Positions 38,561 through 41,984 of a stretch of 64,000 nucleotides of DNA are shown here, one piece after another. The position numbers and the translations under genes are program-made. Source of the DNA: Sphingomonas mali NBRC 15500 (GTDB lineage: Bacteria; Pseudomonadota; Alphaproteobacteria; Sphingomonadales; Sphingomonadaceae); NCBI RefSeq assembly GCF_001598415.1, contig NZ_BCYX01000015.1, forward strand, positions 1 to 64,000, in the 5' to 3' direction. The notes under the pieces were generated by a model. The model was not told the DNA's origin. It did not search any database and saw only the letters and a list, made by a program, of their open reading frames with translations. The stretch's first letter is position 1. Each line of letters begins with the position of its first letter.

Positions 38561-39169
38561 TCATGGCCGCTGATCCCACGCGACCAGGCGGAGTTCACCC
38601 CGCGCGCGCGCGATCGAACCATAGGCCCCGGTGCGAAGCTTCAGCGATGGCAGCGCCGATGCCTGACCACGCAGCCGTTCGTCGGAAAGTAGCGCGAACC
38701 GTGCCGCACCGTTGCTGGTGACGATCAGCACGTGTCCGCGGCCAGTCTTCCACAACCCCTGCCAACCCGCGATCCGGCGGTCGGAATCGACGATCCAGCC
38801 GTCCGGCGCCCGCGCCTCCCTATCCCAGGCGACAAGCGCGTCGTGCCCGATCCTAGCTACGACATCGCTATCGATTCGCCCCTCGTCGGGACCATGATCG
38901 ATCTCCGTCAGCCAATCGGCGGATTCGACGACCGGTGCTCGCGGCTGGCTGGCGAGAATGGCGTCGATCGTCGCGCGCGTTCGCTGCAATGGGGCTGCCA
39001 GCGCCCGGTCGAAAATCATTCCCTGCTCGGCAAAACTGCGGCCTAGGGCCTGCACCTGACCCAGACCGCTCGCGACGAGCGGCAGGTCGGTACGCGCACC
39101 GATCCTGCGCGGCGCTTGATCGGCATCGAAAGTATTGCCGTGCCGGACGATCGTGACGATCAGATCCAC
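38561..39169 (-). CDS. Histidine-phosphatase-superfamily protein in the Kdo operon
   Basis: 202 residues. The N-terminal VRHGNTFDADQAPRRIGART carries the RHG phospho-His motif (His about residue 10), followed by APLQRTRATIDAIL and EIDHGPDEGRIDS, as in phosphoglycerate-mutase-like phosphatases. Odd: the usual second active-site His (VTHGG) is replaced; the sequence reads VLIVTSNGAARF. It starts 10 bases inside the end of kdsB and precedes kpsC. Because the neighbouring genes give every Kdo step except Kdo-8-phosphate phosphatase (KdsC), it is a candidate substitute. That is inference and the missing His weakens it. Confidence 0.8.
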   Translation of the reverse strand: MDLIVTIVRHGNTFDADQAPRRIGARTDLPLVASGLGQVQALGRSFAEQGMIFDRALAAPLQRTRATIDAILASQPRAPVVESADWLTEIDHGPDEGRIDSDVVARIGHDALVAWDREARAPDGWIVDSDRRIAGWQGLWKTGRGHVLIVTSNGAARFALLSDERLRGQASALPSLKLRTGAYGSIARARGELRLVAWDQRP

Positions 39170-39999
39170 GACAGATGCGGCTCGCCGTGCTCGTCGATGA
39201 GGCGCTCCGCCATCGCAACGTCGGCCGGGGTGTCGATCCCGGACATGGCATGAGGAAGGGCCGCGACCTCCACCGTGAGAATATCCTCGCCCGATTCGAG
39301 GAAACGCAATTGCTCCAGTCCTTCGAGGAGCTCGTAAGGCGTGGGCGGCGTCGCCTCGAAGCGCCCGAGCGTCTCGAGTCGATAGGCATAGAGGCCGAGA
39401 TGCCGGAAAACCGGCGATAGCGGGCCATCCTGCCGCAGCTGTGCCTCACCGCGAATTGCGGGGATCACCGCTTTGGAAAACCATAATGCGCATTGGTCGG
39501 CACGCCGGGCGCAAGTCGTACCGCTGAACGGCGAGGTCTGCTTGTGCCGTCGCAGTGTATCGAGCGCCTCCCACGACAGGCGAACGACCGGTGTCGCCAC
39601 GCCCACGGTCGAACCGCGCAGCGCAGCGATCAGCGCGGCGATCGTCGCCGGCTGGACAAAGGGCGCATCCCCTTGCAGGTTGACCACCACGGATGGCGCA
39701 ATCTCGCGATCGCGTGCGGCTGCCCAGGCACGACCCGAACCGGAACTGATCGCGGCGTCGGTGATGATTGCGTCACATCCCAGGCTCCGGGCGTGATCCA
39801 GGATCCGTCCATCGTCGGTCGCAACGACGACCTCGGCATTGCCGACCCGCCGCGCCCCTTCGTGCGCGACGGCGACGACTCTCTCCAATAGCGTGCGGCC
39901 CGCGATCGGCATCAATGGCTTCCCGGGCAGGCGCTGGGAAGCGAAACGAGCCGGAATAACGATCAGTGCGGGCGACTCGTCCTCAGGCAACGCCAGCAC
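39160..39999 (-). CDS. kdsB: CMP-Kdo synthetase (3-deoxy-manno-octulosonate cytidylyltransferase)
   Basis: 279 residues. Activates Kdo as CMP-Kdo. Family text: VIPARFASQRLPGKPLMPIA at the N-terminus, AEVVVATDDGRI, the metal-binding NLQGDAPFVQP, and FRHLGLYAYRLETLGRFE. Start is GTG at 39999 within the last 17 bases of kdsD. The insertion/variant WFSKAVIPAIRG replaces the common YFSR-type text. Coupled to kdsD upstream and the phosphatase downstream. Confidence 0.94.
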   Translation of the reverse strand: MLALPEDESPALIVIPARFASQRLPGKPLMPIAGRTLLERVVAVAHEGARRVGNAEVVVATDDGRILDHARSLGCDAIITDAAISSGSGRAWAAARDREIAPSVVVNLQGDAPFVQPATIAALIAALRGSTVGVATPVVRLSWEALDTLRRHKQTSPFSGTTCARRADQCALWFSKAVIPAIRGEAQLRQDGPLSPVFRHLGLYAYRLETLGRFEATPPTPYELLEGLEQLRFLESGEDILTVEVAALPHAMSGIDTPADVAMAERLIDEHGEPHLSWI

Positions 40000-40978
40000 G
40001 AAGGATGTCGTGGAGGTGGATCACCCCGACCAGTCGCTCATCCTTGCAAACGAAAAGCGCCGAAACGGCATTCTCGTTGAGGATGCGCAGGGCGTCTGAC
40101 GTGAGCGTATCGGGAGACACCGAAATCGGCGTCGCGGTCATGTGATCACGGATATCGTCGCCGAGATGCTTGGCCGTAAAGCTTCGCCGAAGATCGCCGT
40201 CGGTGAAGGCGCCGACAAGGCGGCCGTCATCATCGACCACGGCGGTGCAACCATGGCGCTTGCGACTCATCTCGATCGTCGCGTCGACCAGGGTGGCACC
40301 AACCAGCACTTTCGGAACGTCGGCGTCGCGCGCCATCAGCTGGGCGACTGTCGTCAGTCGCGCGCCCAGGCGGCCGCCGGGATGGAACGTCAGGAAGTCC
40401 GACCTGGTGAACCCGCGCCGCTCGATCAGCGCCACCGCCAAGGCGTCGCCGAGCACCGCTTGCACCGTGGTCGACGACGTCGGTGCCAATTCGTTCGGGC
40501 AGGCCTCTCGAACCCGAGGCAGTACCAGGCAGATGTCGGCCGCTCGACCCGCAGTGCTTTCCGCATGCGCAGTCGCAACGATCAGCTTTACGCCGAAGCG
40601 GCGGCAATAGCTGATGACATCGCCGAGCTCGGTCGTTTCGCCCGACCAGCTCAGCGCCATGACAATGTCATTGCGACCGATCATGCCGAGGTCGCCATGA
40701 CTTGCCTCGCTGGAATGCATGAAGAGCGAGGGCGTGCCGGTCGAGCTCATCGTCGCGGCGATCTTGCGGCCGACCAGCCCGCTTTTCCCCATGCCGGTCA
40801 CGATCAAGCGGCCCGACAGATCGGCGATCATCGCCACTGCATCGAGGAAGCTCGCGCGCAACGGAGGAGACCGCAGCGCCTCTCCGAAAGCTTCCAGCGC
40901 TTCGATCTCGATTTGCGTGGTGCGGAGAGCAGAGTGCAGACCGGATTCGGCCAGGAGATTCGCAGCGGGGGCCTGCAT
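39983..40978 (-). CDS. kdsD: Arabinose-5-phosphate isomerase (KdsD/KpsF)
   Basis: 331 residues from ATG at 40978 with GAGGAATTTT just before it; the in-frame TTG at 40990 is rejected. Converts ribulose-5-phosphate to arabinose-5-phosphate, the first Kdo-specific step. An N-terminal SIS domain (RLIVTGMGKSGLVGRKIAAT, FMHSSEASHGDLGMI, ALSWSGETTEL) is followed by two CBS domains (about 205-330). First gene of the leftward kds-kpsC unit and divergent from kdsA. Confidence 0.95.
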   Translation of the reverse strand: MQAPAANLLAESGLHSALRTTQIEIEALEAFGEALRSPPLRASFLDAVAMIADLSGRLIVTGMGKSGLVGRKIAATMSSTGTPSLFMHSSEASHGDLGMIGRNDIVMALSWSGETTELGDVISYCRRFGVKLIVATAHAESTAGRAADICLVLPRVREACPNELAPTSSTTVQAVLGDALAVALIERRGFTRSDFLTFHPGGRLGARLTTVAQLMARDADVPKVLVGATLVDATIEMSRKRHGCTAVVDDDGRLVGAFTDGDLRRSFTAKHLGDDIRDHMTATPISVSPDTLTSDALRILNENAVSALFVCKDERLVGVIHLHDILRAGVA

Positions 40979-40998
40979 AAAATTCCTCAAATGCCATA

Positions 40999-41017
40999 CA
41001 TCGACAACGGGTCGATG
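40999..41017. promoter_or_regulatory. Inverted repeat in the kdsD-kdsA divergent region
   Basis: CATCGAC-AACGG-GTCGATG: 7-bp arms with a 5-base spacer, located 21 bases upstream of the kdsD start in a 157-bp divergent region. It could be an operator or a leader hairpin; no regulator is assigned. Confidence 0.35.
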
Positions 41018-41135
41018 CTCTCTAGTCCGCTATCACATTGACTTCCAGCGATTCTGAAGCGCAGGGCGTCACTATGTGAGCATTCGTCGCACTAGGCGAC
41101 CGGCGTATCGCATGGCAAGTAATCTGAGGGGCAAT

Positions 41136-41984
41136 ATGCATCTTTGCGGGCAAGAGATTGGTCCAAATCGGCGGCTTTTTTTCATCGCCGGCCCCTGCGT
41201 TATCGAAAGTGAGGCTTTCGCGCTGGAGACGGCGGCGCGGCTTCGCGCCATCGCCGAGCGGCTCGGGGTGCTGCTGATCTACAAAAGCTCGTTCGACAAG
41301 GCCAACCGCAGTTCAGGCGCTTCCTTTCGCGGCCCTGGCATCGAGGAAGGGCTGCGCATCCTGGAGAAAGTCCGCGACGAGACTGGCCTTCCCGTCTTGA
41401 CCGACGTTCATTCCGAAGACCAGGTGAAGGCCGTCGCTCAGGTCGCGGACGTACTACAGACGCCTGCCTTCCTTGCGCGGCAAACCGATTTTATCGCGGC
41501 GGTGGCTGCATCTGGCAAGCCGGTCAATATCAAGAAGGGGCAGTTTCTGGCGCCAGGGGACATGTCTCACGTCGTCACCAAGGCCCGGCTGGCCGCAGAA
41601 GCGGCCAGCGTTCCGACTGACAATTTCCTGGTGTGCGAGCGCGGTGCAAGCTTCGGATACAACAACCTCGTGTCCGACATGCGCAGCCTCGCCATCATGC
41701 GCGAGACCGAATGTCCCGTGGTGTTCGATGCGACCCATTCGGTTCAGCTGCCGGGTGGACAAGGCGACCGCTCGGGCGGCCAGCGCGAATTCGTCCCCGT
41801 CCTTGCCCGCGCGGCGGTCGGCGCCGGCATCTCCGGGCTGTTCATGGAAACGCATCCCGATCCCGATCAGGCGCTGTCCGATGGACCCAATAGCTGGCCG
41901 CTCGATCGACTTGAGCCGTTGCTGGAACGGCTGCTCGCGATCGATTCTGTAGTGAAAGAGGGGCGTCTCGAGGAAGCCTTCTAG
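41136..41984 (+). CDS. kdsA: Kdo-8-phosphate synthase
   Basis: 282 residues from ATG at 41136, preceded by GAGGGG. In-frame upstream codons at 41076 and 41112 are rejected on family length. Condenses arabinose-5-phosphate and PEP. Landmarks: LFFIAGPCVIESE, YKSSFDKANRSSGASFRGPG, LQTPAFLARQTDF, NIKKGQFLAPGDM and DATHSVQLPGGQGDRSGGQR. It diverges from kdsD, so the two probably share a regulatory region. The Kdo made here most likely goes to the capsule linker. Confidence 0.96.
   Translation: MHLCGQEIGPNRRLFFIAGPCVIESEAFALETAARLRAIAERLGVLLIYKSSFDKANRSSGASFRGPGIEEGLRILEKVRDETGLPVLTDVHSEDQVKAVAQVADVLQTPAFLARQTDFIAAVAASGKPVNIKKGQFLAPGDMSHVVTKARLAAEAASVPTDNFLVCERGASFGYNNLVSDMRSLAIMRETECPVVFDATHSVQLPGGQGDRSGGQREFVPVLARAAVGAGISGLFMETHPDPDQALSDGPNSWPLDRLEPLLERLLAIDSVVKEGRLEEAF

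Follow-up and report, generated by a model that had tools for sequence, protein, structure and literature searches.

A kdsB-linked histidine-phosphatase-fold protein as a putative non-orthologous Kdo-8-phosphate phosphatase in Sphingomonas mali and other bacteria

Which enzyme dephosphorylates 3-deoxy-D-manno-octulosonic acid 8-phosphate (Kdo-8-phosphate) in a bacterium that encodes the other enzymes leading to cytidine monophosphate-Kdo (CMP-Kdo), and in which no match to the phosphatase KdsC can be found? This question is raised by a stretch of 64,000 nt (positions 1 to 64,000 of contig NZ_BCYX01000015.1; hereafter the window) from Sphingomonas mali NBRC 15500, the genome assembly of which has a size of 5.2 Mb and is 100% complete. 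Beside kdsB, the window encodes a protein with the histidine phosphatase fold (HP), and this protein probably acts together with KdsB as a non-orthologous Kdo-8-phosphate phosphatase. The genes concerned are the following:

38561..39169, minus strand: HP, histidine-phosphatase-fold protein of 202 amino acids (aa) with a GTG start (PF00300, 66.6 bits), the proposed Kdo-8-phosphate phosphatase
39160..39999, minus strand: kdsB, CMP-Kdo synthetase of the NF003952 subfamily (218.5 bits, cut-off 193)
39983..40990, minus strand: kdsD/kpsF, arabinose-5-phosphate isomerase with SIS and CBS domains (TIGR00393, 296.3 bits, cut-off 203.7)
41076..41984, plus strand: kdsA, Kdo-8-phosphate synthase, divergent (TIGR01362, 393.3 bits, cut-off 314)

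On the minus strand, kdsD, kdsB and HP overlap in turn and are followed by a kpsC-like gene and then by the gene of a GT4 glycosyltransferase. The original prediction, made from the sequence of the window alone, was that KdsD, KdsA, KdsB and KpsC are encoded together, and this was borne out by the matches to TIGR00393, TIGR01362, NF003952 and PF05159. The overlap of 10 bases between kdsB and HP was likewise found as predicted (39160-39169), and that between kdsD and kdsB amounts to 17 nt, a value that hinges on the choice of the longest open reading frames (ORFs). The overlapping arrangement holds for kdsD, kdsB and HP but does not extend to kdsA, which lies on the opposite strand with 85 nt between it and kdsD, or to the kpsC-like ORF, which is separated from HP by 108 nt with the ORFs as listed. 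KdsA, KdsB and KdsD of the CMP-Kdo pathway each score above the cut-off of one or more NCBIfam models; KdsB stays under that of TIGR00466 (134 bits vs 155.2). KdsA has a single match in its own genome, as has KdsB (NF003952, E ≤ 1e-10). The absence of a canonical KdsC, noted at first for the window, was confirmed for the whole genome, where no match to TIGR01670 was found at E ≤ 1e-3. A KdsC fused to KdsB, KdsD or KdsA was ruled out, as none was present among the listed domain matches of these proteins.

The strongest single hint at the function of HP comes from a sister family of the same order, here termed f5, in which the matching slot of the operon is taken by a canonical KdsC. A KdsC match was found at most 100 nt from the KdsA match in 27 of the 28 f5 genomes (from coordinates, by eye; in G250 the two matches are on separate contigs), and the order kdsA-kdsC-kdsB-kpsC was seen in all eight f5 loci inspected, without HP there and, in two of the eight, with more than 1 kb between kdsB and the kpsC frame. 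In the window's genus it is kdsB-HP that leads to kpsC, as against the KdsC-kdsB order in f5. Ahead of kpsC, the Kdo genes thus include a HAD phosphatase in f5 and, putatively in the same role, HP in the window's genus. The two share the proposed reaction and the place in the pathway; KdsC (YrbI, TIGR01670), which in f5 stands between kdsA and kdsB of the kpsC operon, has the HAD fold and is unrelated to the histidine phosphatases (PF00300). Among 299 relatives, KdsA was found in 111, HP in 29 (27 full proteins and two fragments at contig ends) and KdsC over its cut-off in 30. HP and KdsC (at cut-off) never occur together in this set; all 59 carriers have KdsA, and 52 KdsA-positive genomes have neither.

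By homology and fold, HP is a variant of branch 1 of the histidine phosphatase superfamily (PF00300); it is not classed as a full member by the two-histidine rule because the second pocket histidine is replaced by serine. PF00300 is its sole Pfam match (cut-off 21.7 bits), and its 15 NCBIfam matches are each far below the respective cut-off, the best being the alpha-ribazole phosphatase CobC (TIGR03162; 37.1 bits vs 162.9). No HAD family was present among its Pfam and NCBIfam matches. The AlphaFold2 model of HP (mean pLDDT 97) is closest in fold to metabolite phosphatases. Along almost its entire length it matches the phosphoserine phosphatase 4ij6 (Z 21.9, 192 residues), 9mmh, a histidine phosphatase of riboflavin synthesis (Z 21.8), and Rv2419c (Z 21.2); 3r7a is matched with Z 21.9 over 189 residues. 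The description of HP as a phosphoglycerate-mutase-like protein with an RHG motif and without the usual second histidine was therefore upheld by domain match, fold and pocket: R9, H10, R63 and E89 are kept, and the second pocket histidine is Ser152 in the motif VTSNGAAR. The Hydrogenobacter phosphoserine phosphatase (4ij5/4ij6) and CobC resemble HP in fold, and CobC is the best NCBIfam match; unlike them, HP stands in a kdsB operon, scores far under the CobC cut-off and has no second histidine.

The loss of the second histidine is a family trait and not a local oddity. In an alignment of 70 HP relatives (A2), R9, H10, G11, R63, E89, D91, S152, G154 and R157 are invariant in all 70. In an even draw of 347 genomes of the class, 27 HP orthologues were found by a profile (A1) for which Ser-bearing rows had been used, five of which recur among the 27. 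Serine occupies the second-His position in 26 of the 27, or in 21 of 22 without the five profile seeds. The lone orthologue with histidine (G553, locus L211; motif TSHGG) is linked to kdsB in a genome without a KdsC match, and in the HP tree its row is placed inside the Ser rows with weak support (88/86). A wider, pattern-based scan of named genomes, limited to the best 80 of at least 390 relatives, reached Legionella and Bacteroidota. Serine in its loci is partly so by construction, because one of the patterns includes the SNG motif; the profile of the class draw had no such filter. Histidine is present in all six paralogues compared at the position where HP has S152. Weak HP matches in other genomes (80 bits or less) were treated as paralogues, and the few inspected all keep the second histidine, one of them from G017, a genome without a KdsA match. 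A frame of 736 aa in G285, the row of which is misaligned in the class-draw alignment, was rejected as a kdsB fusion; it reads as a paralogue sharing its frame with another protein.

A family in which one catalytic residue is lost in this way might consist of pseudo-phosphatases, that is, non-catalytic partners or regulators of KdsB with the old pocket serving to bind Kdo-8-phosphate, Kdo or CMP-Kdo, hydrolysis being left to unspecific phosphatases. The serine found in 26 of the 27 of the class draw and in all 70 of A2 would suit such a role, as would the retention of HP in some genomes with KdsC, and passages of PMC10728186 describe flea proteins of the superfamily without both histidines, with Ser or Pro at the second position, as inactive binders. 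However, the inactive flea proteins have lost the RHG histidine too, whereas His10, Arg9, Arg63 and Glu89 are invariant in HP; relatives without the second histidine alone are possibly active, a point left open in those passages of PMC10728186; and one kdsB-linked member (G553) has a canonical pocket. A purely binding role is hence regarded as unlikely. Catalysis is favoured because the other pocket residues are invariant and because one kdsB-linked member has the second histidine.

For HP as a Kdo-8-phosphate phosphatase, we infer the substrate, the activity and the role of Ser152 as follows. KdsD and KdsA would give Kdo-8-phosphate, from which HP would remove the phosphate via a phospho-His10 intermediate, with Arg9 and Arg63 holding the phosphate and Glu89 assisting. 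KdsB, encoded in the overlapping frame just before HP, would then turn the freed Kdo into CMP-Kdo, and Kdo from CMP-Kdo would be put on the capsule lipid by KpsS and KpsC in the window's organism and on lipid A by WaaA elsewhere. Ser152 and the conserved Asn-Gly would replace the second pocket histidine and may adapt the pocket to the carboxylate of Kdo or to contact with KdsB. A wider proposal, to which we give about an even chance, is that of a dedicated second family of Kdo-8-phosphate phosphatases with a Ser-Asn-Gly pocket, active without the second histidine, co-transcribed and possibly complexed with one clade of KdsB for direct handover of Kdo; this family would have taken the place of KdsC in some Alphaproteobacteria, spread to other phyla as a kdsB-HP pair and explain part of the KdsC hole reported in the literature (see below). 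The assignment of HP as a Kdo-8-phosphate phosphatase is plausible, and the slot swap and the link to kdsB lend it weight; it covers only part of the KdsC-less bacteria. If active, HP breaks the two-histidine rule of its superfamily.

Several observations weigh against this assignment. The first is the replacement of the second pocket histidine by serine itself: passages of PMC12051542 name four pocket residues, Arg, His, Arg and His, as common to all histidine phosphatases, plus an assisting Glu, and of these only the second His is missing from HP. Secondly, KdsC is reported to be non-essential in E. coli in passages of PMC5615194. In the genus sample of 181 genomes (G000-G180), 51 of which have KdsA, all 24 HP-positive genomes have KdsA (hypergeometric 5e-16, kinship ignored). 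This speaks for the assignment, but the co-occurrence is not independent of inheritance as one operon. The full HP-positive set, 51 entries for 49 distinct genomes (G620 is G581, and G623 is G398), has KdsB over its cut-off in all 51, in a single such copy in 47, and KdsA in 50 (the miss is G616). No KdsC at cut-off was found in 42 of the 51, among them all 27 alphaproteobacterial genomes, but nine have KdsC as well: five Legionella, two metagenome-assembled genomes (MAGs) of Legionellaceae, Parabacteroides sp. PH5-46 and a MAG of Rikenellaceae. In all six of these coexisting KdsC proteins that were aligned, the HAD motifs look intact by eye.

Further points on the same side come from genomes without HP. 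From the draw of 347, 73 HP-less genomes were picked by hand, of which 18 were already known to have no KdsC over cut-off and the other 55 had not been inspected beforehand; the list omits G271 and G290, two HP-less genomes of the draw that have KdsC. KdsB over cut-off is present in 66 of the 73 and KdsC over cut-off in none, and in the window's genus, 27 KdsA-positive genomes have neither HP nor KdsC over cut-off. Other phosphatases can therefore do the Kdo-8-phosphate step, and HP as the general alphaproteobacterial answer was rejected. Outside f5, few genomes of the class have KdsC, whether or not they carry HP; G271 and G290 do have it. Of the idea that HP fills the gap left by KdsC, what stands is the KdsC in the equivalent f5 slot and the lack of KdsC in the genome of S. 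mali; as a simple rule for filling gaps it is not supported, given the HP-less genomes and the nine entries that have both HP and KdsC. Also supported are the co-occurrence of HP with KdsA and its place beside kdsB.

The coexistence of HP and KdsC in Legionella and Bacteroidota could also mean that HP acts as a phosphatase in the pathway on some other substrate, such as a side product, or that it has a house-cleaning task next to KdsB, and histidine phosphatases do have many substrates, as the structural matches illustrate. Such a role would leave the Kdo-8-phosphate step without a linked enzyme in the 42 HP-positive entries that have no KdsC at cut-off, and the equivalent slot in f5 is filled by a canonical KdsC. 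A different substrate is accordingly considered improbable, and dephosphorylation of Kdo-8-phosphate is kept as the preferred function of HP.

The link of HP to kdsB is close and widespread. In the class draw, kdsB is directly upstream of HP on the same strand in 26 of 27 cases (21 of 22 without seeds; the exception is G406), a recurrence on account of which the adjacency is not ascribed to chance. In the wider scan, 76 of the best 80 loci have a kdsB homologue upstream of HP, at most 2 kb away and on the same strand, the exceptions being L122, L129, L168 and L177. Of 102 kdsB-HP pairs, genus included, 84 overlap or are at most 20 nt apart; 62 overlap, 47 of them by exactly 4 nt, and 13 have gaps over 60 nt, eight of which exceed 130 nt, where an intervening frame is possible (HP starts were picked near the RHG motif, and L111 and L230 duplicate L053 and L176). 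The surroundings of the pair differ: Micavibrio-type genomes have a dipeptide transporter and pyrD there, Legionella a peptidase, Parabacteroides sp. PH5-46 RmuC and a gammaproteobacterial MAG mevalonate genes. Micavibrio-type genomes share their HP surroundings, and the commonest other neighbour group occurs in 40 of 80 loci. That HP is a passenger by chance linkage with no role in Kdo synthesis, as might be thought because most of the tested class genomes with KdsB do without HP, is very improbable in view of this linkage, its persistence across differing neighbourhoods and the occurrence of the pair in Bacteroidota, which in the KdsB tree are nested together with gut alphaproteobacteria.

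The distances of HP and KdsB are correlated across 100 loci with r 0.78, a value reached in none of 1000 permutations (kinship ignored). In the KdsB tree (a quick search with SH-aLRT only and a midpoint root, in which the two HP fragments at contig ends were labelled as linked by hand), the 104 HP-linked rows need two changes, as against 34.5 in shuffles. The 31 unlinked KdsB stand apart, and eight HP-less KdsB of the window's genus branch inside the HP-linked rows. It was concluded that the kdsB-HP pair probably moved together between phyla, because the Bacteroidota pairs group with those of gut alphaproteobacteria. In Parabacteroides sp. PH5-46 (G614; L170, L227), kdsB-HP looks acquired from gut alphaproteobacteria, and a second KdsB as well as KdsC are found elsewhere in the genome. 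At locus L122 (5097-7618, plus strand), HP has no kdsB neighbour; its overlap, of 4 nt, is with an O-antigen-ligase-like gene.

The remaining genes of interest in the window bear on the use that is made of Kdo:

36755..38452, minus strand: kpsC-like poly-Kdo linker glycosyltransferase (PF05159, 153 bits)
35562..36764, minus strand: GT4 glycosyltransferase overlapping the kpsC-like ORF (PF00534)
30989..32326, minus strand: kpsS-like poly-Kdo linker glycosyltransferase (PF05159, 266.6 bits; NF050054, 271.6 bits, below the cut-off of 600)
21117..23781, minus strand: ABC transporter ATPase, ABC-2 permease and Wzz-like protein (PF00005, PF01061 and, slightly below cut-off, PF02706), presumably KpsT/KpsM/KpsE-like capsule export
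23868..25076, plus strand: Poly_export/SLBB outer-membrane export protein (PF02563), presumably KpsD-like

The genome has two PF05159 proteins at E ≤ 1e-8, both in the window, which are the KpsC and KpsS homologues. The locus is a group 2-type capsule locus with a poly-Kdo linker, the set being completed by the kpsS-like gene and the export genes. WaaA (PF04413, E ≤ 1e-5) gave no match in this genome or in the other 50 KdsA-positive genomes of the genus. Of these 51 genomes, 23 of the 24 with HP and 14 of the 27 without it have KpsC/S. Two f5 genomes tested also lack WaaA and have KpsC/S, and Kdo therefore seems to serve the capsule in both groups. In contrast, the five distant HP-positive alphaproteobacteria tested all have WaaA and no KpsC/S, on which ground a capsule-only role for HP was rejected. 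Since the pair occurs with KpsC/S in the absence of WaaA and with WaaA in the absence of KpsC/S, HP is tied to the shared CMP-Kdo step; this points to an association with the making of CMP-Kdo and not with one use of it. HP is neither capsule-specific nor local, so that its original description as a peculiarity of capsule loci was not borne out, the observation being wider than first seen.

The lack of KdsC has been described before. According to passages of PMC5615194, KdsC forms a pathway hole not only in Rickettsia but also in the further Rickettsiales and Holosporales studied there and in many bacteria besides; Rickettsia resembles S. mali in having the CMP-Kdo pathway complete but for KdsC. 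There, a different and possibly unspecific phosphatase is proposed, with HAD hydrolases in mind; here, a dedicated, kdsB-linked histidine phosphatase is proposed, and for a subset only. HP answers only part of the published hole because 66 of the 73 HP-less alphaproteobacteria have KdsB without HP or KdsC, and it offers a concrete candidate enzyme for one subset of KdsC-less bacteria. In the alphaproteobacterium Granulibacter, no obvious KdsC was noted, in a passage of PMC8036547, beside a failure to detect Kdo. Absence of KdsC is a poor sign of absence of Kdo, because KdsC over cut-off is found in none of the 27 HP-positive and none of the 73 chosen HP-less class genomes, nearly all of which have KdsB.

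The riboflavin-synthesis histidine phosphatase of Aquifex aeolicus (9mmh; PMC12051542) is a precedent for an enzyme of this superfamily filling a pathway gap. According to passages of that paper, it fills the lone missing phosphatase step of its pathway and has a full pocket (R8, H9, R58, H149), where HP has serine at the second histidine. It resembles HP in fold and differs from it in substrate. No paper proposing a kdsB-linked histidine phosphatase was found in the open-access PMC literature, nor was one found that names kdsB, phosphoglycerate mutase and kdsC together. In the one open PMC paper with both kdsB and a histidine phosphatase, the passages concerned place the latter in a cobalamin cluster.

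Some minor observations concern KdsC-like frames and the genomes without HP. Near-cut-off KdsC matches of 98-103 bits were found in G054, G063, G149 and G174, in frames of 414-489 aa; G149 and G174 are HP-positive, and their matches (98-99 bits, under cut-off) lie within a longer frame. The match in G174 was rejected as a KdsC: as read by eye at L232:2835-4028 (plus strand, 397 aa), the frame looks like a cytidylyltransferase that carries a KdsC-like HAD part at its C-terminus, and it perhaps serves another acid sugar. For the HP-less class genomes, the surroundings of kdsB in the 30 best of 67 KdsB-positive genomes (loci L239-L268) were grouped by neighbour similarity. The two commonest groups, often found by kdsB, were a prephenate dehydratase and a cytochrome c, one member of each being scanned; no phosphatase beside kdsB stood out in these 30 loci, in which most neighbour groups are unnamed and kdsB is uncalled in some.

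In the window itself, a DUF5672 protein (30158-30949, plus strand) follows a series of sugar-nucleotide and glycosyltransferase genes and adjoins kpsS. Between kdsD and kdsA, genomes of the genus that lack HP encode a protein of 436-442 aa, and the two such proteins that were scanned, both from genomes without KpsC/S (G039 and G180), combine a cytidylyltransferase part with an RraA/aldolase-like part:

L070:6434-7744, plus strand: cytidylyltransferase-RraA/aldolase-like protein
L092:8727-10043, minus strand: cytidylyltransferase-RraA/aldolase-like protein

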